Shown here: one piece after another, positions 26,805 to 52,222 of the stretch
Position numbering within the stretch: position 1 is the first letter of the stretch
Layout of the letters: each line of letters starts with the position of its first letter
DNA from: Effrenium voratum
Taxonomy: Eukaryota; Sar; Dinophyceae; Suessiales; Symbiodiniaceae
Length of the DNA: 64,000 nucleotides
NCBI GenBank assembly: GCA_963377175.1
Contig: CAUJNA010000575.1
Span: 117,001-181,000, forward strand
Reading direction: 5' to 3'
Translations under genes and position numbers: made by a program
The notes under the pieces: generated by a model
What the model was told of the DNA's origin: nothing
Database searches by the model: none
What the model saw: the letters and a program-made list of their open reading frames with translations, nothing else

Positions 26805-26851
26805 CAGGGGTGGGGGTGGGGGTTGGGGTGGGTTTTGGAGGGTGGGGTAGG
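26805..26851. repeat. G-rich tract at viral target site (left flank)
   Basis: GGGGTGG-type repeats run up to the viral left end and resume after the right end at 49,253-49,285, showing that the virus split one G-rich tract. Confidence 0.75.
26847..26851 (+). repeat. Target-site duplication, left (GTAGG)
   Basis: GTAGG directly precedes the terminal AGTTAGACAGG and is found again directly after the right terminus at 49,248-49,252. Five bases fit DDE-integrase insertion; most Polintons give six. Confidence 0.75.
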
Positions 26852-27353
26852 AGTTAGACAGGGGGCTTTCCCGTCCGCATTTTGCCATCCGGTCCTAGGG
26901 TCCCCCCCACACTTTTGGGCACATTCTGAATACGCCCACTAAAACAGCCCATTTTCAACATTCAAATTCAATCACCCACCCAATCCAACGCCAAAAAACA
27001 CATATTCACATACCCATCTTCATTTCTTACCCCATCTCAACATCACCCTTACACTCATTCAATAACAACAATCATAACTACATACCACCTCAACAAACCC
27101 CACCAACAAAATCCAAGCTACATACCAACATTTTTTCATTCCCAAGATCGCAACCCCAAGATCTCAATAATTTCTCCCTTGATCCAAACTGCAACCCTTT
27201 CCCATTTCCAACAAATACGAACAGTCTAAAAAAGAACCCTATGTTCGCCCCGAAAAATGGTTAACCAATGGAAAAGGGAGAATTAAAACCGTTAACCCAA
27301 ATCTTGAAAACAATCCCAGTAAAATATGGATGGCAAAATGCGGATGGGAAAGG
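26852..27353 (+). repeat. Left terminal inverted repeat
   Basis: Matches the reverse complement of 48,749-49,247 almost base for base over the outer ~450 bp (for example CAATCACCCACCCAATCCAA and GAACCCTATGTTCGCCCC), with more drift over the inner ~60 bp. The outer end CTTTCCCGTCCGCATTTTGC and inner end GGCAAAATGCGGATGGGAAA are inverted copies of each other, so the TIR is itself flanked by a short inverted repeat. No ORF. Confidence 0.95.
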
Positions 27354-27399
27354 CCTATGTAGGAAAGCACCCCCCACGGCTTATACGGGAAAATTAAAC

Positions 27400-28697: not shown

Positions 28698-29201
28698 TCA
28701 TATATCATTATAAGTCAATTCAAAATTAGTTATTGTGTAACTCGTTAAATTATTATTAAATTTACCAATTAAATTACAAATATTTTTGTAATTTTTGTTT
28801 GAATATTTATGAAACTTTTCAATATTATCTGTAATATAAATTATTAAACATTTAATACATTCAAACACATTAACAACATTAATGTTACTATTTGTGTGAA
28901 TATTATTCATTTTTCTCAATGTAATTTCATAAAACTGAATAGCATTTTTATTATCATAATTAGCAATAAATCTTAAAGTATATGAATATATTCTTTTACA
29001 ATAAAATTTTAAATCTGATTGTTCAAATAAATCAGCATAATTAATAGAATTATAAAACATGTTAAAATCAATTTTACTATTTCTAAAGTCATTAACAAAA
29101 TTAATTAATATATCATTTTCGTTATATTCTTCAATAACAATATTTAATTTCAATTCCTTTACATCAATGAATTTAATAATATTATTTATAACATCTTGCA
29201 T
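28698..29201 (-). CDS. Uncharacterised viral protein (167 aa)
   Basis: Very Asn/Ile-rich, all-helical in appearance, no motif recognised. ATG at 29,201 is the first available. Composition and codon use match neighbouring viral genes, and it lies in the same minus-strand run of small ORFs. It could be a lineage-specific accessory gene. Confidence 0.6.
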   Translation of the reverse strand: MQDVINNIIKFIDVKELKLNIVIEEYNENDILINFVNDFRNSKIDFNMFYNSINYADLFEQSDLKFYCKRIYSYTLRFIANYDNKNAIQFYEITLRKMNNIHTNSNINVVNVFECIKCLIIYITDNIEKFHKYSNKNYKNICNLIGKFNNNLTSYTITNFELTYNDI

Positions 29202-29808: not shown

Positions 29809-30571
29809 ATGTCAGATGTTCCAATAATAAAGCCAATAAACATAACTGAATATGAATTCAAACAATCTAAATATGAGCACGTGCCAAAATTACCATTTAG
29901 AAGTATTATAGTTGCTTCTTCGACAGGTGGCAAAACAGTCTTGGTTCAGAACCTTATCTTAAATGTTTATAGAAATTCATTTGCAAGAATATTTAGATTT
30001 TCCCCCAGCGTTCATAATGACCCAACCTTTACAGAAGTTAAAAAATATATCAGGGATGAATTGCACGTGGATGATGAAAAAGAACAAATATATTTTGATA
30101 ATTATAATCCAAGTGATTTAGAAAATGTAATTGAAAGACAGAAGAAAATAATTAATTATATGAAATTAAAAAGATAAAGAAACTACATTCAATATTAATC
30201 GTTATAGACGATCATGCCGACGACCCTAAATTTGTGAGATATAGTAAATTATTACATGGATTATGTACAAGAGGTAGGCACGATGCAGTAAGCGTAATTT
30301 GTTCAACACAGAAATATAATGTGTTGGCGCCTATCATTCGTTTAAATGCCAGTTCATTATATATTTTAGGTTGAAAAATGCCAGTGAATTAATGAGTTTT
30401 ATTGAAGAAAATAGTGCCATTGTTGATAAACAGCAATTATTAGATATGTATCATCAAGCAGTGAATTTTGCTCCATATTCTTTTTTCTACGTGAATATGA
30501 ATTCAAAAGACATTAACAAAATGTTTCATATCAATTTTGAACAGGCATTTCAAATTACAAATGATGAATAA
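29809..30571 (+). pseudogene. A32-like FtsK/HerA genome-packaging ATPase, frameshifted
   Basis: Packages viral DNA into preformed capsids in Polinton-like viruses, virophages and NCLDV. The first frame (from ATG 29,809) has the Walker A region IIVASSTGGKTVLVQN; the second (about 30,170-30,370) has Walker B SILIVIDDHADD and the downstream VSVICSTQKYN strand; the third (to TAA 30,571) has the C-terminal SELMSFIEENSAIVD region. The frame is lost twice, near 30,160-30,175 (A-run) and near 30,365-30,372 (T-run), each consistent with one missing base. Walker A is divergent (STGGKT). About 250 residues in total, normal for the family. Order and motifs make the call firm; function depends on whether the frameshifts are real. 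Confidence 0.85.
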
Positions 30572-31596: not shown

Positions 31597-31684
31597 AATA
31601 GATCCAGGGATCCTCTACTACCACAAGGACGTCAATAACCGCACGGGCCGTCTGGAGCGGTTTGAGGTGGCAGCACAGCAGTAG
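31597..31684 (+). CDS. Host-like terminal exon fragment in the insertion
   Basis: TCTCTTGCAG acceptor, then a frame containing [18 protein letters not shown] and a stop TAG at 31,682-31,684. Composition is host-like, and a related snippet (AAGATCCTCTACGACCACAA) lies upstream at about 31,210-31,229. It is probably a captured host exon. Family not recognised. Confidence 0.4.
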
Positions 31685-31689
31685 GACTC

Positions 31690-32000
31690 GATCCCGGACC
31701 GGCTTCCCAGACCGGTCCCAGGACCAGTCCCAGGACCGGTCCTGGGACCAGTCCCAGGACCAAACCGCCCCTGGGACTGGTCCTGGGACCAGTCCCAGGA
31801 CCGGTCCCTCCCAGGACCGGTCCTGACTGGTCCCGGGACCGGTCCTGGGACCGGTCCCGGCACCGGTCCCAGGACCGGTTTTGGCTGACTACAAGTAATC
31901 TGAAACAGCACAACCAGGAATCCCAGGACCGGTCCCAGGACTGGTCCCAGGACTGGTCCCAGGACCGGTCCCGGGACCGGTCCCGGGACCGGTCCTGGGA
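31690..32000. repeat. GGACCGGTCC palindromic minisatellite
   Basis: Dozens of GGACCGGTCC, GGTCCCGGGACC and GGTCCCAGGAC units, interrupted at about 31,880-31,925. Each unit is self-complementary, so the array can extrude into hairpins. The [14 protein letters not shown] ORFs through it are products of the repeat. Confidence 0.9.
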
Positions 32001-32122
32001 ATCCACTTTTTGTGGGTTCGGGCGTGTTCCCCAGGGACTATCATTGATTCCAATCACTTCCAGTTGCATCCCACGCCGGTCCCCTCTGCAGGAGGCTGGG
32101 ACGGGAGGCAGAGGGTCGGCGG

Positions 32123-32911
32123 ATTTTTGTTTTTCTTCTCCGTCTTCTTCTTCGTCTTCAGTTGGTGCTGGTATTTCTGTTGGACTTTCAGATGAAGAAC
32201 TATGAACAGTAATAGGTGGAGAACTATGAACACTAATAGCTTCATTTGATGAATTGCTACTGCTACCTTGTGCATTTCCTGCTGTTATTTGATTAACTAA
32301 ATCTGCGATATTTATTGTTGTTGCAATTGCGCTATGTGATAAGTTTAATATTATATCTGCTACCGTAGCGCCGTTGTGTAGCATTATTTCTATCATTTTT
32401 GTCAGTTTGAATCTTTTTTCTTCTTCATCGCTGTCCTCCTCGTCTGGTGGTTTCTTTGGCGGTGGTTCTGGCGGTTTGTTGTTGTCAAGCATTGTAGTAA
32501 AGGCTGACACCATTGCGTCGCGTTGGTTTTTCAGGGTTTGTGTTGCTTGCGTTCTTGTTGGTTCATGTCTTTTGTATGCGTTGTGCCAAAAGTTTTTAAG
32601 CATTATTTTAAACATATTGTCTTGGTTTTTTCCTCTACCTTAAACGCTTCAAATGTCATATTTAATTGCTGATTTGCATCATTGTATAACTTTTCTTGCG
32701 TCTCTCTGGTTTCTGTTGCAATTGTATCTGTATTGGTTGCAATGTCAATAAATTCTCTCGGTATGCATTTTTTCATCATTTTCGGTGGTTGTATTGTTGT
32801 TGGTGTGTTTGGTTTTGTTAGGTTATGTATTGAAAAACTGTCGTCGTGATCATAATTATCATTGAACTTCTGCTTCTTTCTTTTCAGTATATTTTTAGTT
32901 AATATTATCAT
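32123..32911 (-). pseudogene. Acidic/proline-rich viral protein, frameshifted and truncated
   Basis: ATG 32,911 opens a basic start and a helical region (102 codons, stop 32,603). The next frame from about 32,630 onward continues helices (MFKIMLKNFWHNAYKRHEPT), a PEPPPKKPPDEEDSDEEEKR linker and a Ser-rich acidic tail until the GC-rich insertion at 32,122. An A6 run at about 32,631 is the likely indel site, so both ORFs are probably one ~265-residue protein whose C-terminus was cut off by the insertion. Family unknown; its position near capsid genes suggests a virion or assembly role. Two overlapping genes are the alternative. Confidence 0.5.
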
Positions 32912-34408: not shown

Positions 34409-35996
34409 TTAATCATAGAGCAAACTTCCGGATTCGCGTAATTCTAACACGCTCTCACTAATCATATGCACAAATAATTCTCGCACATCTTCATCAGTTG
34501 TCAGTGGTGCTCTATTAGTCCCTTTCAATTTAAACACGAGTAAACCTCCCATTTTAGTATTCTGTCCAGTAAAATTAGTGTCTGCCATTTTCTCAAATGA
34601 TATACCAATCACGAATTGATCTTCTCTAAATCGCTTGTAGGAAATGCTAAAGGCATCTTGGTCAGGGTTCAAATAGTGTAATGTTCGTCTTAAATAATAT
34701 GCAGTTTCTGCCATTGATTGACATTCAAACTCTGGGTATTTCTTATTATTAATTTGTAATTGCCACGTTAAATTTAAATCTTTATCTTGAAAACCTTTAC
34801 CTTGGAAACGCTCGCGCCCAGCACCATCAGGGTCAGCACCATCAAAAATACGAGAATTAATCATAGGATTGTAAAAATAGTTCCATCTCTTATAAATATA
34901 ATTATCGTGTCTGTAGTAATTATTATTATCAGCATCTACACCTGCTCTTGGCGCACGATACAATGTAATGAAGCAACCATTTAATTTAGAAGCGGATTTA
35001 ACAATATTCATATTAATTTCAGTTCCTGCCGCGTTGAATGATTGCGTCATAGTGTGATACATTGGAAAAACTAATTTCAATCTTTGACCCTCTAACAAAT
35101 GTTTAACTATGTTATTGTTGACCGTGTTGTCCAATTGTATTACCTCTGCTCGTAGAATTACATTATTTAATTCCCACGAGGTGCTGGTGTCTCCAGTTGT
35201 GAAATAATAACCTTTGGCATCATTTTGAGTGTTGGCATCAGTTACGGTAAAAGGCGTAACTACTGGCATATGTTCATCTGATACAATTGTAAATTCCAGT
35301 TCAAGTGGAGCATAACGAAGAGGTAAATAATAATTGCTTTCTAACAGTCCGCATACCGGTTTATGTCCTAATCGCATATAACCATTAGCGCCGGGAATTC
35401 CTGCTACTGAATGGCGAGTATATCGTGCTGTTAAATCTCCCCAGTTGTTGTGGTCTCGTGTAGTTGGAAATGTAGTTGCTGCGGGGTCTGCTGCGGGATC
35501 AGTTCTTTTATTGACATCTAACATTTCTGCCAAGTCCAGTAGCATAAGTATGTCGCCAGTCATCATCCCAGCGAGGATTAGCGCTACTTTCTAAATCGTC
35601 CATATCTCGGGCATCTTGACTTTTAAAAGAATTATACAATTCACAGTGCCTATTGTATTCAATAATATCTTGAACTTGTTGCCCGCCTACAGTGCATCTA
35701 TACCGACTGAAGAAGGATGACAAATTACCCAACGGTCGTAAAAAATGACTTCGTGTTCCGTCGGTGTTTTGAAGATTGGCAAATAAACGAATAGAAGATA
35801 AATCAATATACGTGTTGTCTTCACCTGATATATGAAATCTAATATTTTTGTTTCCTGCATTTGGATTATAGACATTACTACCCGATGGAAAATAATTAAC
35901 GTGTCGTCGGTCTGTGATGTATTGTGCTGTTTCTGGAAGTCCAAAATTTAACGAGTTAATCATTGTGGTTTCACTTTCTGCAATTATATTATCCAT
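34409..35996 (-). pseudogene. Major capsid protein (double jelly-roll), one frameshift
   Basis: Forms the icosahedral shell as pseudo-hexameric trimers. The N-terminal ORF (ATG 35,996 to stop 35,508) contains FRPLGNLSSFF-type and FSRYRCTVGGQQVQDIIEYN sequence. This matches the family pattern in which a short loop, NL-x-S-[FL]-F then V-x-G-x-x-V-x-x-I-x-x-YN, marks the first jelly roll. The second ORF runs to 34,409 with strand-rich sequence, LESNYYLPLRYAPLELEFTI, and late WQLQINNKKYPEFECQSMAE typical of the second jelly roll. The frame changes between 35,510 and 35,565. Joined length ~510 residues is normal for PLV capsids. Read leftward with the downstream structural genes. Confidence 0.85.
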
Positions 35997-41205: not shown

Positions 41206-44200
41206 ATGTCATTGTCAAAAACTATAAGAAATAACATCAGGTCACTAAATTCAAGAATTGATAGGTTGGCAGGCGATACCAAGGAAAAAGCCACCGAATT
41301 GAGAGATCTATATGAACAGCGAAAAATTGCACAGTTTAGCACCGCATCAACTATTATTGACGGGTTTATCAATGCCACCACCCCAAAGGAAAAAAAGAAA
41401 TGGGACAAAAAATACGACGATGTGATCCAAAACAACCGTATAAATCTACCGTTGAATGTTAGGATGAAACGAAGCACTGTAACTAACATTGTAAAGCAGT
41501 CTAAGGCGAACGATGAATCGTGGACATTAGACGTCATGCTTTACCGCGAAGGTGTTAGGGAAGGTGACAACAAAAAGCCGGCTTTCACATACAAAACAGA
41601 ATACGGAGAACTCAAATATTACCCCATAACAAAGGACGGTAAGGAGAGAACATACACCGTTAACGCCAGCACAAATATAGACGAGTATGTAGGCAAACGA
41701 ATTGTAAAAACCAATGATTATGATCTATTCAGAAAGTTCATTGTAACACTCGCCCAAGATCCAGAATTTGAAACAATGCTAAATATTATGGGTGGGTATG
41801 TTGGCGTTGATCAGAAAAAAACAATCGAGATCAACAAGAAGAAGAGGTTAACCAAGAAGACTAACGCTGTGGCTTACAACGTAGAGACGGGGTATATTGG
41901 CGCCTTGAAGATCTTGAGAGCCAGAAAGGTGGAAGGTGGACAGCCTAGTAATCCACGACAAGCCAACCTGAGAAGATCGGAAAACATCAGTATGTATAAT
42001 ACTTACATGTATACCGAATTGGATACATCGAAAGAAACATTTATGGAAGCAATCCAGAAAGGTAATTATGTAGACAATCAATGTTGGTTGAATACACTCA
42101 CTGATTATTATAAAGATACCCTAATGAACAACAAGAAGAAAGAACCAATGTCGCGAGGGATGATACTAAAACTAATAAATAAAACAGAACAGGAATTCAC
42201 AGAGTCAGGGGCGTCAATTGATGACATGATCCCGGTATTTATAAAATACAGAATGCGTGTGAGAATAATAGACCAACTGGGCAAAATCATTTATTCCTAT
42301 TCACCAGAGATGTTTGACCGCAACATCAGAGCCTTTTATGCAATGGTCAAAAATAATCATATCTACACACTGAATAATAATATTAAAAGATTGGAACAAA
42401 AACAAAATACTGATGATGCATTTGTAGTAAAGGCACGACCCGACTATCATATAAGTGATAGAGAGAAGCCATCGATTTGCAAAATGTTTTCTACTATTGA
42501 TGACATTTTTGAAATGGTTAAGGCAACAATTGCGAACAGAACCGACAAACAGGAAAAGAACTTTTTAGATTTAGTTCATAGAGAGAATGATCTAAATAAA
42601 TTATTTTGCGATTTCAAAAATATCGGGTATGAATGCAGGATTATTCACAAAGCAGGGACTATTTCAGAATTGAGGGCGGACTTCAATCATGTATATCTAA
42701 ATATTAGGTCGCAGTGTTTGGTCGATGACCAAGCCAATAGCGACATCACGGTAGACAGAGAAACGGTTTACAACAATATGACTGAAGCGATGTTTACATT
42801 CAAAAAGAAATTATTCAATCCAAATCACAAGTCTTGTTATAGTCCTACCGATATACAAGTTTTAAATAATTATAGAACCATCGTCCCACAAGGCGAGTTA
42901 TTCAAGGGCTTGGATAAATTGGATGTTCCAAAACAGGAGATCGACATGAGCAAAGCGTTTACAGATGCATTTAATACGATTACCAGAATTGGAGTTTTTA
43001 ATCAGTTTGATAATTGGAAAGCTTATCATAGTAAATGTAAGATCAAGGATGTAAATATATATTTGGTAAAAGCAGAACTGACACATCACAATCTGTTTTT
43101 TAACAATGATACAAATATAGTTTATGGTATGTTTCTTCAGCATTTTATGCCACTTGTTGCATCTGGCGAGTTGTCCATTACTCACTACAAACAGCCACAT
43201 TTCATTCACAAGGTAAATAATAAAATGTTGGTTGAGGAACTCTGGGGAAAGCGAATAAGCGAAAATATTGAAGAAGACAAGGCAATTAAAAAAATAATAG
43301 CCAACTCGATTTTTGGCTTGTTGGAAAAAAGTAAGAACAGCAGTCAGACATCATTCGTTTTTGATGATCTCAATGAGGCGATCAGCCTTCAGGCAGATGC
43401 AGGTGGGAAGTTAAACATGATGAGTAAGCATACTGCCAAGTGGGTTGAGGAATACGATGACAACGGGGTGTGGTGCCGTGATAGAGAAGTATCTGAACAA
43501 AACGACAATTTATATTATATTCTGAATGTGGTTGATAGGCGCGAGTTGTCCAATGGGTTTCGTTTTATTAAAGAAATGCTTTTGCAGTATCATAATTTCA
43601 AAATGCAATGCGCGTATCAAAAATTGACAGAGAACAATGTTAAGGTATTGAGTGTCAAATGCGACGCTTTTGTCGTGGACTGTTCGGGTTTTAATAAGTT
43701 TGGTTTGAGAAAGACTCAGCAGTTGCTAGATTTTCACGATGGGATCGGTGGGTGGAAATTAGCCAAGACTCACGATGAGATCCATCATACAGGAAAGCAG
43801 TTGTATGAACAGAAGAAGTGTGAATATGTTGATATCCCGATTGTCAAAAGTAAGAGAGTTAACATCATTAATGAGTATGATGAAAATGAATTGGTTGAAC
43901 TTGTTGAGAAATATAGGTGCTTGATGATCAAGGCCAAATTCGCAGGAGCGGGGAAGTCCACCATCTGCAAGAACATGGAGAGACTCAAGGGTTATAAAGT
44001 GTTGTTCGTGGTTCCTACCAATAATCTGGGTTTGGAGTGCGAAGTGGAAAGCGTCACTGTAAATAAATTCTTCGGTATAGCAGTCAATGACGAGAAGCTA
44101 GATAAATACGATCATTCGATGTTTGATGTCATTGTGTTTGACGAGATTTGTTTTAATAATACCTTTGTATTGGCAAAAATCAAGGGCTTTGTTGAGCAGT

Positions 44201-45213
44201 TCAAGGACAGTAAAATAATGTTGGCAACCGGTGACGCCAAGCAGTTGAGCCCCATAAAAGCACTGACTAACACTAAGAAACACGAGATTTATATGAATGA
44301 ATGTATTGACAGCATTTTTCCTCATCATTTGTTTTTGGAAGAGTGCAAGCGATTGAAGACTCAGGAGGACAAGGATAAACTTAAAAGTATTTATGCCGAC
44401 ATCTTTGAGCATGAGTTGTCTCTACATGATGTCATCAATAAGTATTTTAAATATACTGATGACATCACAGGAACAGAAAGCAATGTCGCATATTTAAATA
44501 ACACTTGTAGAGAGGTTTCAAGGCAGATCAGGAAACGACAGGGCAAACAAAATGAGTTTGAAGTCGGCGAGATCATGATATGCAGAGAGTATAGGAAGAC
44601 AAAAACCTATAAGTTAAATGTGAATTTTAGGTATGAGATAATTAATATTTCCGATCCTTGGATTACCATTGCTAATATCAAAACACGAGAAGAGATCACG
44701 CTAAATATTGGTATCTTGAGAAGTCATTTTATCTTTGCCTTCTGTTATACTTGTCATTCTGTTCAGGGGTGTTCCATTGATGACGATGTCGTGATATTTG
44801 ACTGGAACCATCATCTGATAACTCGCGAGTGGCTTTGGACGGGGATCACTCGGGCAAGGGATTTAAACAGAGTAAAATTTTACAAATACAGTAGTGATTT
44901 AAATGAAGAGTTTAACGCAAAATGCATTATGAATTATTTTGATAGAAAGGTGTTAGCATACAAGGAACAGGATAGGAAAAACAAATTTGAGATCCCAAAA
45001 GACAATTATGTGGATGCCGAATGGTTGAAGGACAATGTCAACGGAAAGTGTGCAAATTGTGGCTGTGGTTTCGTGTTGTCAATGGATTCTGGTAATATAA
45101 ATTCTAATCTGACTTGTCAAAGGTTATGTAATGATCTTCCCCATACAAAGGATAATGTCATTGCCTTCTGTGCTTCTTGTAATAGATGCTTCAGTGATAA
45201 AATAACATACTGA
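41206..45213 (+). CDS. DNA polymerase B - SF1 helicase - zinc-finger fusion (1,335 aa)
   Basis: A single intact ORF. Residues ~1-280: unknown. ~290-395: DNQCWLNTLTDYY ... KNNHIYTLNNN, a Cys...His arrangement faintly like an OTU/papain-type domain (speculative). ~560-830: PolB-type palm with motif A QEIDMSKAFTDAF (Asp ~578), motif B KKIIANSIFGLLEK (~694-707) and motif C VKCDAFVVD (~818). ~905-1,225: superfamily 1 helicase with Walker A FAGAGKST, DEI box VIVFDEICF, motif III ATGDAKQLSPI, and YTCHSVQGCSID ... WTGITRARDL (V/VI). ~1,280-1,335: CANCGC ... NLTCQRLCNDLPHTKDN ... CASCNRC, a treble-clef/HNH-like cluster. No clear 3'-5' exonuclease was recognised. Likely the protein-primed replicase with its own unwinding and DNA-processing modules. 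ATG follows AAAATATATT. Confidence 0.85.
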   Translation: MSLSKTIRNNIRSLNSRIDRLAGDTKEKATELRDLYEQRKIAQFSTASTIIDGFINATTPKEKKKWDKKYDDVIQNNRINLPLNVRMKRSTVTNIVKQSKANDESWTLDVMLYREGVREGDNKKPAFTYKTEYGELKYYPITKDGKERTYTVNASTNIDEYVGKRIVKTNDYDLFRKFIVTLAQDPEFETMLNIMGGYVGVDQKKTIEINKKKRLTKKTNAVAYNVETGYIGALKILRARKVEGGQPSNPRQANLRRSENISMYNTYMYTELDTSKETFMEAIQKGNYVDNQCWLNTLTDYYKDTLMNNKKKEPMSRGMILKLINKTEQEFTESGASIDDMIPVFIKYRMRVRIIDQLGKIIYSYSPEMFDRNIRAFYAMVKNNHIYTLNNNIKRLEQKQNTDDAFVVKARPDYHISDREKPSICKMFSTIDDIFEMVKATIANRTDKQEKNFLDLVHRENDLNKLFCDFKNIGYECRIIHKAGTISELRADFNHVYLNIRSQCLVDDQANSDITVDRETVYNNMTEAMFTFKKKLFNPNHKSCYSPTDIQVLNNYRTIVPQGELFKGLDKLDVPKQEIDMSKAFTDAFNTITRIGVFNQFDNWKAYHSKCKIKDVNIYLVKAELTHHNLFFNNDTNIVYGMFLQHFMPLVASGELSITHYKQPHFIHKVNNKMLVEELWGKRISENIEEDKAIKKIIANSIFGLLEKSKNSSQTSFVFDDLNEAISLQADAGGKLNMMSKHTAKWVEEYDDNGVWCRDREVSEQNDNLYYILNVVDRRELSNGFRFIKEMLLQYHNFKMQCAYQKLTENNVKVLSVKCDAFVVDCSGFNKFGLRKTQQLLDFHDGIGGWKLAKTHDEIHHTGKQLYEQKKCEYVDIPIVKSKRVNIINEYDENELVELVEKYRCLMIKAKFAGAGKSTICKNMERLKGYKVLFVVPTNNLGLECEVESVTVNKFFGIAVNDEKLDKYDHSMFDVIVFDEICFNNTFVLAKIKGFVEQFKDSKIMLATGDAKQLSPIKALTNTKKHEIYMNECIDSIFPHHLFLEECKRLKTQEDKDKLKSIYADIFEHELSLHDVINKYFKYTDDITGTESNVAYLNNTCREVSRQIRKRQGKQNEFEVGEIMICREYRKTKTYKLNVNFRYEIINISDPWITIANIKTREEITLNIGILRSHFIFAFCYTCHSVQGCSIDDDVVIFDWNHHLITREWLWTGITRARDLNRVKFYKYSSDLNEEFNAKCIMNYFDRKVLAYKEQDRKNKFEIPKDNYVDAEWLKDNVNGKCANCGCGFVLSMDSGNINSNLTCQRLCNDLPHTKDNVIAFCASCNRCFSDKITY

Positions 45214-45239: not shown

Positions 45240-46156
45240 ATGAGTGAAAAAGACAAGACAATCAGTGAGGTCTACTACGATCAGGCTGGGTTTGGTAGCA
45301 TCGCCACCACTTACAAAGATGCAAAAAAGAAAGATGCATCCATAACAATGCAAGATGTCAAGGAGTGGTTTCAAGAGAACGTGGAACGGAAAAAACAACT
45401 GTCTGGATACAATTCGTTTATTGCCCCTGATATCAACTTTGAATATCAATTGGATCTGTTTTTTATATCAAAAAATGATTTAGATAATCAAAAATATAGG
45501 ATAGGCTTATTGCTTATTGATGTATTTTCCCGCAAAGCCGTGGTGGTGCCTATTGCATCCAAGCAACCTGCCGACATCACGGCTGGGATCATGGAGGCAT
45601 TAAACAAAATGGGAGGGAAACCCAAATTAATTTATTCGGATGACGAGGGGAGTCTCAATACCCAAGATCTTGTCGATTTTTTCAAGGACGAAGGGATCCA
45701 AAACTATAAAACACGAGGGCACCCCCATTTCGCCGAGCGTTTCATTCGCACGTTCAAGGACATGCTTTTCAAGAGGGTTGATGCAGACGAGAAAAAGGGA
45801 AAGGTTAATATACAATGGGTTGATTATATCCCCGAGATCATGCTGACATACAACAGTAAAATGGTTCATTCTGCCCACGATATGACTCCAAACGATGCCC
45901 ACAAAAAGGGAAACCATCTTGAGGTCAAGATGAAGCTTGAGATGAACAGAATCAAAACCCGTAAATATCCCCCTGTTAGGGTTGGCGATGAGGTCAAAAT
46001 ATACCGCAAAAAAGGGATTTCCGAGAAAGAAAGAACGAGCAACTGGAGCAGTGTCAAATACAAGGTTTCAAGGGTTGAAAAAAACTTGGTCAAGATTATT
46101 ATTCTGTTGAAGGGATGAACCGCCCCTATTTGAGGTCAGAGGTTTTGAGGGTTTGA
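45240..46156 (+). pseudogene. Retroviral-type (rve) integrase, late frameshift
   Basis: Catalyses insertion of the linear genome. The RNase-H-fold core has D72 in YQLDLFFI, the second Asp in LIYSDDEGSL (~134) and the Glu in HPHFAERFIRTFK (~166), about 31 residues apart, close to D,D-35-E. An N-terminal helical region precedes, and a C-terminal SH3/chromo-like segment PVRVGDEVKIYRKKGI follows. The annotated frame ends TGA at 46,116. A shifted frame continues YYSVEGMNRPYLRSEVLRV to TGA 46,154-46,156, the usual integrase ending, so one A is probably missing in the A7 run at about 46,079-46,085. Catalytic core intact. Only 26 bases separate it from the polymerase stop. Confidence 0.85.
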
Positions 46157-46202: not shown

Positions 46203-46393
46203 ATGTCACTGTTTCTGGGACACCGTTTCTATGACAACGTGTCACTGTTTGTATGACAACGTGTCACCGTTTCTATGACGACACGTCACTGTTTCTATGA
46301 CGACACGTCACTGTTTCTATGACAATGTGTCACTGTTTCTATGACGGCACGTCACTGCATCTATGACGACATGGCACGGTTTCTGTCACGATA
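46203..46393. repeat. 22-bp tandem repeat after the integrase gene
   Basis: Units of GTCACTGTTTCTATGACGACAC with variants (GACAACGTGTCACTG...) repeat about eight times. GACACGTC/GACGTGTC cores are partly palindromic. Composition is intermediate between the viral core and the cargo gene, marking the junction of the two. Confidence 0.85.
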
Positions 46394-46573: not shown

Positions 46574-48536
46574 ATGGTAGAAACAGCACCGCCAAAGAAG
46601 CGGAAGCTTGACCATGACTGGACTGTGGCGCAGCTCAATGACGTCGCCATGGATGAGGCTTCCAAAAGCAGTGTCGGCTCGCTCATTCAACAACTTCCGG
46701 AGGATGACCTGCGCAAAGCTTCAGCAGAGACATTGTCCTTCTATTTACACGAAGTGGGTGATTTGAATGTGCGACGCATCGTGGCCGTAAGACTGCACCA
46801 TCGGATTCAAGACCTCCAGCCACCATCAGCACCCGCCCCTTGGCTTAAACATAATCAACATGTTGCGCCATTCCCTTTTCTAGGTTTGGTTGTTTCGTTC
46901 CTCTCTGGTTCTTAGGTATGTTTGTTTGAGTGGTTTATTTGCTTGTGTTTGGGGTGATTGCTAGTTACTTGTTTTGTTGGTTTGCTTTCACTGCACTGCT
47001 CAGGACCCTGGATATCAAGATGAACTTTGCCATTGGCTGGATGAGGCTGTGTCCAAGACACCGAAGCCCAGCAACTGGGAAGCTGACACCGTGCAGGAGT
47101 TTGCACACAATATTCTGGGAAAGAGGGACATGAATAAAAGGCTGGTTCTGCGAAAGTGTTACATGGACATGTGTAGCCTTGTCCACAAATGGTTGCTTCA
47201 CAATTTCTCCCAAGAGGACATGGGCGTTTTCGTCATTACAGGCACTCCCGGCATTGGGAAATCCGTTTTTCTGGCTTATGTGGCAAGTCGTTTGGCTGAA
47301 GAGGGCATCAACATCGTCATCCAGCTGGGCAAAAGGTGGTGGTCGCGCATTTCAGGGCAGACCATCACGCACAATGACACATGGCCGGTCAAACTCCTTG
47401 ACCACTCCAAAACTGTTCTATTGGCAGACCCAGTTGGCGGTGAGAACTCCCAGCCTGTTGACCCTCGCATGCGTGGTTGCACTATTATTTTCACCTCGCC
47501 ACAGCAGAAGAACTACGACAGTGTTTGGAAGCAGGCTGAAGGTCGTTCAAAGCGCTATTTCATGCCAGTTTGGTCAGAAGAGGAGGTGCTGAACCATTGG
47601 AAAGCTGGGGGCATACTGCAGATTTGCAAGGAAGAAGCAGACGTGAAGAAGGCATATTCCATGATTGGAGGGAGTGTGCGATACTTGCACAAATTGCTGG
47701 TGGCAGTAGCCGAGAATAAGACCACTCTGGAAGAGGAAGCAAAGCAGATGATTCGCGACTGCGTCGTCAAGTGCACGTTTGAAGACTTGTGTCAGGCTGC
47801 TGACAGTGGCGGTGCAGACATGGATGCACAGAACAACAGGAGCAAGATGAGTCGGGTGCTACACATCCATTCGGATGCCAAGTTTCAGACGCCCAATGTG
47901 AAGTTGATTGAGTCCGAGGTTGTTCTCAACATTTTGTGTGACCAACTGGCAGAGAAGCAACGGAAAGCTCTTCCTGACCTTATCAGGGCAAGTTTGAATA
48001 TCACCCCTTTGGGCACACTGTGCGGTCGGCTATTTCAGATGCATGTCGCCGAGGTTTGCAAATCCAAGAAGGTGGAGCTTGTTTGCACTGCATTGAAGAC
48101 GAATAAGGACAAGACAGAGTCAGCTGCAGTCAAAATTTGCATCCCGACCCTGCAGAAGATGCTCAAGAAGTTGGGTGACCAGCCACCACCAAAGCCTTTG
48201 CCAGAATTTGATGAGAATTGCTTGTATTGTCCTGAATCTGAGACATTTCCAGCCGCTGATTTTTTCTTTGTTACCAATGAGGGCAAGAACATCACGCTTT
48301 GGCTACTGCAGGTCACGAAGGCAAAAAGTCACGACTGCAAGATTGATGCTTCTTACAAGCAGTTCAACAACTATTTCCAACTGAATGGAGTCAAGAGCAT
48401 CAAGTGGGTTGTAGTCGCTCCTGAAGGTGACATTGCAGAAGGATATGCGTCGAGGCAGAAGGTTGTCGGCACATGGGGTGTTTCGGAGAAATGCAAGGTC
48501 AACGTTGAGCAGTATGTGAGTTCATGGAAGGTATGA
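46574..48536 (+). CDS. Crinkler/RHS-type NTPase-nuclease protein, viral cargo, intron-containing
   Basis: Exon 1 from ATG 46,574 starts with a nuclear-localisation-like PPKKRKLD and runs in frame to about 46,880-46,915 (GT candidates at 46,881 and 46,916). Intron of ~90-120 bp; acceptor GCTCAG ends at 47,003. Exon 2 (47,004-48,536, TGA) encodes a P-loop domain with FVITGTPGIGKSVFLAYVAS, Walker B TVLLADPVGG, strand CTIIFTSPQQKNY and FMPVWSEEEV. The SP...MPxW-x-x-EE series is characteristic of the Crinkler (CRN)/trypanosome RHS family. The C-terminus has FPAADFFFV then LWLLQVTKAKSHDCKI, the D...Q-x-T-x-x-x-x-H core of the family's PD-(D/E)XK-like nuclease. In the family such proteins act in host nuclei as effectors or in inter-genomic conflict. 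Codon use and GC are host-like, unlike the viral genes. The splice junction frame is not settled. Confidence 0.75.
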
Positions 48537-48607
48537 TCTTGACTCGTTCAAGCGACTGAAATGCGGTGAAAAATGGTGGGGTGGGGAGAGGCGGTGTTGG
48601 AAAAACC

Positions 48608-48691
48608 GGATTTGCAATTCCAACGGCGGATTTTGCAGTTCCAACGGCAGATTTTGCAGTTCCAACAGCGTCTGTTGCAGTTCCAACGGCA
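48608..48691. repeat. 21-bp tandem repeat
   Basis: Four imperfect copies of GATTTTGCAGTTCCAACGGCA downstream of the cargo gene, ~60 bp from the right TIR. Confidence 0.85.
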
Positions 48692-48748
48692 TTTTTTGCT
48701 GTTTCATGGTAGTTTCGGCAGTTTCTAGGGCGGTGTGTCTACTGAAGC

Positions 48749-49247
48749 CTTGTTCAATCCGCATTTTGCCATCCCATGTTACACAGATTATTTTCAAGAT
48801 TTGAGTTAGCCCTTAGAATATTCCTTTTTCCATTGGTTAACCACTTTTCGGGGCGAACATAGGGTTGTTTTTTAGACTGTTCGTATTTGTTGGAAATGGG
48901 AAAGGGTGTCAAGTTGGATCAAGGGAGAAATTATTGAGATCTTGGGGTTGCGATCTTGGGAATGAAACAATGTTGGTGTGTAGCTTGGATTTTTTGGTGG
49001 GGTTTGTTGAGGTGGTATGTAGTTATGATTGTTGTTATTGAATGAGTGTAAGGGTGATGTTGAGATGGGGTAAGAAATGAAGATGGGTATGTGAATATGT
49101 GTTTTTTGGCGTTGGATTGGGTGGGTGATTGAATTTGAATGTTGAAAATGGGCTGTTTTAGTGGGCGTATTCAGAATGTGCCCAAAAGTGTGGGGGGGAC
49201 CCTAGGACCGGATGGCAAAATGCGGACGGGAAAGCCCCTGTCTAACT
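48749..49247 (-). repeat. Right terminal inverted repeat
   Basis: Reverse complement of 26,852-27,353. Ends CCTGTCTAACT. The inner edge (CCGCATTTTGCCATCCC at about 48,759) is the inverted partner of its own outer edge (GGATGGCAAAATGCGGACGG at about 49,210), as in the left copy. Confidence 0.95.
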
Positions 49248-49252
49248 GTAGG
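49248..49252 (+). repeat. Target-site duplication, right (GTAGG)
   Basis: Direct repeat of 26,847-26,851. Confidence 0.75.
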
Positions 49253-51049: not shown

Positions 51050-52222
51050 GTGACAAAATGCTGCCCCTGCCACACAAACACACACCCAGATGCACAGAAT
51101 GCTGCGGCTGCCACGACTTCGGCAACGGCATCGCCAAAGTGCTGCGCCTGCCACGATTTCGCAACGGCATCGCCAAAGTGCTGCGCCTGCCACGATTTCG
51201 CACGCCCCCCGCCGCGCGCGCGACAACATCCTGTCCCTCTAGACAGCTGCCGAATGCGACCCCTGCCACACAAACACACACCCAGATGCACAGAATGCTG
51301 CGCCTGCCACGACTTCGGCAACGGCATCGCCAAAGTGCTGCGCCTGCCACGATTTCGCAACGGCATCGCCAAAGTGCTGCGCCTGCCACGATTTCGCACG
51401 CCCCCCGCCGCGCGCGCGACAACATCCTGTCCCTCTAGACAGCTGCCGAATGCGACCCCTGCCACACAAACACACACCCAGATGCACAGAATGCTGCGCC
51501 TGCCACGACTTCGGCAACGGCATCGCCAAAGTGCTGCGCCTGCCACGATTTCGCAACGGCATCGCCAAAGTGCTGCGCCTGCCACGATTTCGCACACCCC
51601 CCGCCGCGCGCGCGACAACATCCTGTCCCTCTAGACAGCTGCCGAATGCGACCCCTGCCACACAAACACACACCCAGATGCACAGAATGCTGCGCCTGCC
51701 ACGACTTCGGCAACGGCATCGCCAAAGTGCTGCGCCTGCCACGATTTCGCAACGGCATCGCCAAAGTGCTGCGCCTGCCACGATTTCGCACACCCCCCGC
51801 CGCGCGCGCGACAACATCCTGTCCCTCTAGACAGCTGCCGAATGCGACCCCTGCCACACAAACACACACCCAGATGCACAGAATGCTGCGCCTGCCACGA
51901 CTTCGGCAACGGCATCGCCAAAGTGCTGCGCCTGCCACGATTTCGCAACGGCATCGCCAAAGTGCTGCGCCTGCCACGATTTCGCACGCCCCCCGCCGCG
52001 CGCGCGACAACATCCTGTCCCTCTAGACAGCTGCCGAATGCGACCCCTGCCACACAAACACACACCCAGATGCACAGAATGCTGCGCCTGCCACGACTTC
52101 GGCAACGGCATCGCCAAAGTGCTGCGCCTGCCACGATTTCGCAACGGCATCGCCAAAGTGCTGCGCCTGCCACGATTTCGCACGCCCCCCGCCGCGCGCG
52201 CGACAACATCCTGTCCCTCTAG
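51050..52222. repeat. 196-bp satellite, about six units
   Basis: Near-identical 196-bp units follow each other (boundaries near 51,240, 51,436, 51,632, 51,828, 52,024). Each unit contains two to three internal copies of GCATCGCCAAAGTGCTGCGC then CTGCCACGA, and a GCCGCGCGCGCGAC block. It is open on both strands, giving long artificial ORFs. Confidence 0.95.

Follow-up and report, generated by a model that had tools for sequence, protein, structure and literature searches.

The 64,000-nucleotide stretch of the dinoflagellate Effrenium voratum considered here (contig CAUJNA010000575.1, positions 117,001 to 181,000; hereafter the window) contains a Polinton-like element of 22.4 kb, at 26852-49247, which carries a gene of the Crinkler-RHS (CR; RHS, retrotransposon hot spot) group at 46574-48536. 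We propose, with a probability of roughly 0.7, that a Polinton-like viral lineage of E. voratum carries this CR gene as a resident and that the gene works in genetic conflict within the nucleus. Across many separate insertions the place of the gene is fixed, and roughly half of the copies have an open and constrained exon 2; it has kept an intron, and its product joins a header bearing a nuclear localisation signal (NLS) to a STAND-like fold.

The limits of the element are given by inverted repeats, by GTAGG on both sides and by a lower GC content. The terminal inverted repeats (TIRs) of about 520 bp (left, 26852-27375, plus strand; right, 48728-49247, minus strand), include 249 nt that are fully complementary between left and right, and the right one also lies beside the gene at other loci. 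The two copies of GTAGG stand directly outside the TIRs (26847-26851 and 49248-49252), so that the element has both the TIRs and the short target duplication of Polintons, a duplication that, at 5 bp in G-rich surroundings, is weak evidence by itself. The flanks have a GC content of 0.505 and 0.513, in agreement with the 50.6-50.9% given for E. voratum in the part of the source consulted (PMC11114475). Inside the element, GC is 0.41 in the integrase, 0.37 in the helicase and 0.16-0.40 in the other open reading frames (ORFs) measured, with an exception of 0.52 at 31635-32615. The CR gene, which follows the integrase ORF (45240-46118) and precedes the right TIR, has exons of 0.51 and 0.49. Both its place inside the mobile unit and its host-like GC had been proposed in a first-pass annotation of this DNA, and both are borne out.

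A resident gene in many insertions

Exon 2 was searched against the E. voratum assembly itself (1.156 Gb in 3,699 contigs), which gave at least 35 matches, at 20 loci; the 19 loci other than the window were retrieved for inspection. TIR sequence adjoins exon 2 at all 20, and 18 of them, namely L009-L025 and the window, have integrase, spacer, exon 1, intron, exon 2 and repeat in that order. Within these 18, L022 has no detectable exon 1, a partial integrase and 3.4 kb separating spacer from intron, the helicase match is lacking at L019 and L022, and at L020 the right repeat is reduced to its inner part. The other two loci, L026 and L028, are remnants in which a C-terminal piece lies next to repeat pieces, with no integrase within 8-9 kb. 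Outside the TIR, sequence is unrelated at all 19 readable loci (the sole in-register match is 91 bp at 82%), so the loci are separate insertions. Every CR copy found in this genome sits in such an element or remnant, and the CR gene is a resident gene of part of a wider element family, not a one-off insertion. The first-pass annotation had named as refuting evidence that other copies of the element lack the gene and that this copy is a separate insertion of it. The outcome was the opposite, 17 further loci having the gene in the same position and with the same junctions. Some related elements are without it. Five predicted E. voratum proteins (P0006, P0007, P0010, P0016 and P0025) join CR pieces to sequence of host type (such as kinesin and Vps16); they are probably gene-model chimeras spanning inserted elements.

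Exon 2 is open in 10 of the 20 loci and broken or partial in the other 10. Among the ten open copies it is constrained, with a ratio of non-synonymous to synonymous differences (pN/pS) of 0.459 (bootstrap 0.369-0.570), and of 0.564 (0.368-0.869) beyond codon 180. Two segments that flank the P-loop, exon 2 residues 30-73 (47091-47222) and 114-137 (47343-47414), diverge strongly among proteins that, over the segments compared, are 84-98% alike. Mismatches cluster in 11 of 15 pairs at p 5e-6 or less and the other four pairs show no such clustering, p-values that are descriptive because the segments were picked after the alignment was viewed. Positive selection was considered as the cause and rejected, since synonymous divergence (dS) is raised there as well (0.50 in codons 1-60); recombination between divergent copies fits better. 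The variable stretches to either side of the P-loop have a mosaic appearance, as though cassettes had been exchanged.

The apparent spliceosomal intron of the first-pass annotation is present, although not in its plain GT-AG form. A GTATGT...CAG intron at 46916-47003 (88 nt) was rejected, as it leaves an in-frame TAG at 46913-46915. This TAG precedes GTATGT in all 18 gene-bearing loci, and in 5 of 17 copies a TAA interrupts the exon 1 frame even earlier; the stretch is therefore intronic and coding ends upstream. Comparison of the copies places a phase-0 intron at 46835-47003 (plus strand), with a GC donor and an AG acceptor. By the pattern used, the donor (46835 in the window) occurs in 16 of 17 copies, L012 being without it, and immediately before exon 2 stands CTGCTCAG in 17 loci and CTACTCAG in one. 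A second GC site at 46829 is also possible and fits the predicted protein P0007, which passes from the header directly into exon 2. Non-GT splice donors are frequent in dinoflagellates. Exon 1 accordingly runs from about 46574 to 46834, as judged from header alignments and the donor pattern across copies, and exon 2 from 47004 to 48536, as judged from homologues, a structure model and profiles, both on the plus strand. No spliced-leader relic was found in the window, which together with the kept introns points to copying of the element as DNA.

The CR protein and its relatives

Exon 1 encodes a header with the NLS-like motif PPKKRKL, which had been noted as an NLS-like start and is indeed kept in relatives. 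Headers vary between copies; that of the window matches dinoflagellate headers and aligns at 37-43% to those of three other Symbiodiniaceae-type proteins. No Pfam family was found in exon 1 at E 0.1, nor any Crinkler header (LXLFLAK or ubiquitin-like, Ubl), and the protein is thus no Crinkler in the strict sense. In P0026, a dinoflagellate-type transcript, residues ~15-100 have no Pfam match; by eye, its N-terminus seems to resemble the ubiquitin-like Crinkler header.

The motifs on which the first-pass annotation relied are all located in exon 2: the P-loop GTPGIGKS (47235-47264), SP (47490-47501), MPVW (47562-47573) and the QVTK region (48303-48332). Their residues are retained in most of 73 homologues (K86 in 67, D142 in 67, D419 in 61, Q436 in 59, T438 in 59 and K439 in 60, gaps counted as misses). 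GTPGIGKS and the Walker B motif ADP are kept in all ten open copies, in keeping with the P-loop nucleoside triphosphatase (NTPase) of CR proteins. A structure model of exon 2 (pLDDT 87.4, pTM 0.83) has in residues 18 to ~330 a predicted fold that matches STAND and other AAA+ NTPases. The top structure matches in the PDB are the NLR RPP1, Apaf-1, WRR4A and SAMD9, mS29 and CED-4 are among the best structure matches by VIA, and general AAA+-type proteins appear among the matches listed for a viral structure library. Sequence search of the PDB returned P-loop matches only, and nothing useful for the homologue P0073. For the C-terminal part the model predicts a helix (334-354), strands (357-363, 420-426 and 429-437), a further helix (447-457) and a strand (463-473), with D419 and Q436-V-T-K439, while the structure matches span residues 5-324 only. 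This topology, with D419 and Q436/T438/K439, presumably fits the PD-(D/E)XK fold, and the C-terminal domain is regarded as a putative PD-(D/E)XK-like nuclease.

The match to CRN and RHS proteins claimed in the first-pass annotation holds for the wider CR group and not for the individual families. Against Pfam RHSP (PF07999) the window protein scores 12.7 bits with a cut-off of 25 (E 0.088). Through its homologue P0073 (E 2.7e-10) it connects to a family from brown algae (Ectocarpus, Pylaiella and Laminaria), and P0195, of brown-algal family A5, passes the same cut-off with 31.2 bits. Homology to RHS/CRN members is further indicated by the comparison of the window protein's family (A4) with A5 in hhalign, which, with no common member, gave a probability of 100 and E 2e-40 over 405 columns; of the 19 members of family A3 scanned, 6 have an RHSP match at E 0.01 or below, and P0037 bears the submitter's name CRN16. 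Judged by this profile homology, the window protein belongs to the wider CR group. Close named homologues come from E. voratum, and other Symbiodiniaceae have related CR genes of ~40% identity. A tree of 69 rows, built without the five chimeric models and P0071 and P0072, groups the window copy with close copies in a clade of seven (SH-aLRT 99); several branches are long and the deep order is unsure. Viral contigs scanned with exon 2, the integrase and CR alignments, the helicase and the capsid candidate contained no relatives, nor did one scan of genome contigs; tblastn against phages found none, and PHROGs has no match for the CR protein.

Function, rival explanations and known systems

How the CR gene might serve the element can be outlined from its sequence, from which the expression, localisation and activity of the protein are predicted. 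The gene would be transcribed and spliced in the nucleus, and the protein would re-enter the nucleus by means of its NLS. Once there, binding of NTP would switch the C-terminal nuclease, which may attack or restrain rival DNA (giant viruses or other elements) or manipulate the host nucleus; the mobile element would profit from a CR protein that damages rivals sharing its nucleus. Variation of the segments flanking the P-loop, and C-terminal modules swapped behind a common header, could alter sensing or action.

The partners behind the header are not always the same. Fourteen more loci match spacer, exon 1 and intron pieces without an exon 2 match, and four of these were inspected (L027, L029, L030 and L031). 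L027 has integrase end pieces and the spacer, with neither gene nor repeat match over 9.5 kb. L029, L030 and L031 keep a piece of the header (42-59% identity) together with the right repeat, and at E 0.01 the slot between them has no match to exon 2 or to seven CR relatives. It holds at L030 (1190-1888) and L031 (1212-1910) a 233-residue ORF with identical first 40 residues that starts with the P-loop GTSGIGKS, and at L029 ORFs of 314 and 161 residues on the minus strand; L030 resembles L031, and the two may go back to a single event. The slot can therefore carry different modules behind one header, and it looks modular.

These 14 loci weigh against a resident gene with a function in conflict, as the NTPase-nuclease C-terminal module is not universal among the related elements. 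So does the weaker constraint on exon 2, whose mean dN/dS of 0.436 exceeds that of nine integrases (0.250) and six helicase pieces (0.171); the estimates come from open copies alone, a choice that favours low values. In addition, several genes of the element are broken (a frame change in the integrase, a capsid candidate in two frames, a short ATPase-like ORF), the third nuclease motif is Q-x-T-K instead of a plain (D/E)-x-K, and the nuclease domain is predicted within the model of exon 2 as a whole.

Three other explanations have to be set beside the proposed role in conflict. It is unlikely, although worth weighing, that a host CR gene was once taken up beside the right repeat and has since been copied as a neutral passenger without serving the element. 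The host-like GC and the intron would suit such an origin, as would the related CR genes of other Symbiodiniaceae and the ten loci with broken or partial exon 2; on the other side stand the pN/pS of the open copies, which may owe something to constraint that predates the capture or to the use of open copies only, and the swapping of modules behind a common header in this slot. A role in integration has to be taken seriously as a rival, even if we consider it a long shot: an AAA+/STAND ATPase and a nuclease beside integrase and TIR are arranged like TnsC and TnsA of Tn7, and the CR protein could act in target choice or end processing. TnsC is, however, just one of many AAA+ matches with similar Z, the slot is occupied by another gene in related elements and, to our knowledge, Polintons generally move without an NTPase-nuclease gene. 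That the CR gene is a separate mobile unit, or a host gene, that landed in this single element is barely credible. Such an event would account for the GC step at the gene, and CR genes elsewhere are described near retroelements and helitrons in the section available to us (PMC5289972, section 11), but the identical junctions at 18 loci contradict a separate insertion. Moreover, the two sides of the gene have no common word of at least 9 bp (one 8-mer is shared), the intron is kept and the window lacks a spliced-leader relic.

A tentative extension of the proposal of a resident conflict gene, which we rate at somewhat under even odds, is that Polinton-like viruses use the site next to the right repeat as a cargo slot for assembling CR proteins, joining one NLS header, with its intron, to exchangeable C-terminal modules. 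Recombination between integrated viruses would vary the surroundings of the P-loop, and the CR family of Symbiodiniaceae would be viral at its root, 'host' CR genes being viral or domesticated remnants. When 120 of the 690 integrases and 70 CR proteins were compared, two coincidences of integrase and CR protein on contigs of the same size were found (P0079 with P0005 and P0083 with P0002), and none for the ~40%-identity CR proteins of other Symbiodiniaceae; each cluster being represented by its longest contig, this evidence is weak and, if anything, speaks against a viral root.

Several known systems resemble parts of this arrangement. In CR proteins that combine an NTPase with a restriction endonuclease (REase), the nuclease is described as the toxin and the NTPase as its control, some plant members with DNA-binding headers may act on intracellular invading DNA, and CR genes are proposed to stem from conflict systems linked to transposons (PMC5289972, as far as its section 11 goes). 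The window protein shares with those described there the P-loop NTPase, with a domain predicted to be nuclease-like behind it, the varied N-terminal headers and the modules swapped behind them; it differs in having an NLS-bearing helical header, with no Crinkler header (LXLFLAK or Ubl) detected, and in residing in a Polinton-like element. Profile homology connects it with trypanosome RHSP by way of the brown-algal family that contains P0195, yet host and mobile element are different and its score stays below the RHSP cut-off. The predicted fold is that of STAND NTPases (Apaf-1, CED-4, NLRs and DAP3/mS29), with a nuclease-like C-terminal domain where those have a repeat sensor.

As for the element, nematode Mavericks (Polintons) carry wosp proteases and krma kinases as cargo, and are likewise Polinton-type elements with host gene families and a link to genetic conflict, according to the portion of PMC10680173 consulted; here, by comparison within one genome, the cargo is a CR NTPase-nuclease in a fixed slot, and the host is an alga. 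Endogenous Polinton-like viruses (PLVs) with a helicase-polymerase fusion are likewise described from the dinoflagellate Oxyrrhis marina, but these have a tyrosine recombinase and no rve integrase, and the term NTPase does not occur in the text searched (passages of PMC12721341). CRN genes and Polinton pieces have been reported on the same oomycete contig, one inside the other not being stated in the part of the report seen. A literature search, with subscription papers and preprints outside its scope, found 'polinton-like virus' and 'crinkler' nowhere together. CR genes have reached many unrelated eukaryotes, and a CR gene that is a fixed part of a virus-like element, with many insertions to compare, makes vehicle, direction and selection testable. 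Our observations suggest that conflict genes of Crinkler/RHS type can travel as viral cargo; an NTPase-nuclease is added to the known cargo of Polintons, as a possible weapon in conflicts within the algal nucleus.

Other genes and repeats of the element

The core reading of the first-pass annotation, a CRN/RHS-type NTPase-nuclease inside a Polinton-like element, is supported, with a nuclease domain that is putative and a capsid gene that is a candidate only. The integrase (45240-46118, plus strand) is, as expected of a Polinton, assigned to the rve type, by its 690 homologues, by alignment and by Pfam rve at E 8e-5, under the curated cut-off; some full-length relatives carry PF00665. In comparison with relatives the window integrase ends early through a frame change. 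The early end is found also in P0074, with 18 member sequences, and in P0083, with 16, which shows that copies having it have multiplied.

Upstream lies a replication protein of 1335 residues (41206-45213, plus strand), which is superfamily 1 helicase-like with an endonuclease VII-like C-terminus. Polintons have a protein-primed PolB or a related replication protein; by eye this one seems to have polymerase motifs, the signals from Pfam being of helicases only (AAA_30 and UvrD_C_2, both below cut-off); PHROG endonuclease VII matches at E 1.2e-4. Comparison with the passages seen of PMC12721341 suggests that it is of the Tlr-helicase type. The candidate for the double-jelly-roll major capsid protein of Polintons and PLVs (34409-35996, minus strand), split over two frames, is a by-eye reading with no match in Pfam or the PDB, and its single-sequence model (pLDDT 35) is useless. 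A short packaging-ATPase-like ORF (29809-30177, plus strand) matches Pox_A32 at E 0.0025, below cut-off.

An Rfam scan gave no match. Elsewhere in the element, a 167-codon ORF at 28698-29201 has a GC content of just 16%, and a 12-bp palindromic unit (AGGACCGGTCCC) forms a GC-rich array at 31683-31995, inside an ORF of this AT-rich element. The CR gene is flanked by tandem repeats of 22 bp (46221-46391) on one side and 21 bp (48607-48703) on the other. To the right of the element, at 51057-52222, a nearly perfect 196-bp tandem repeat of 5.9 copies has long ORFs on both strands and is followed by a GTGA-type array that reaches 52533.
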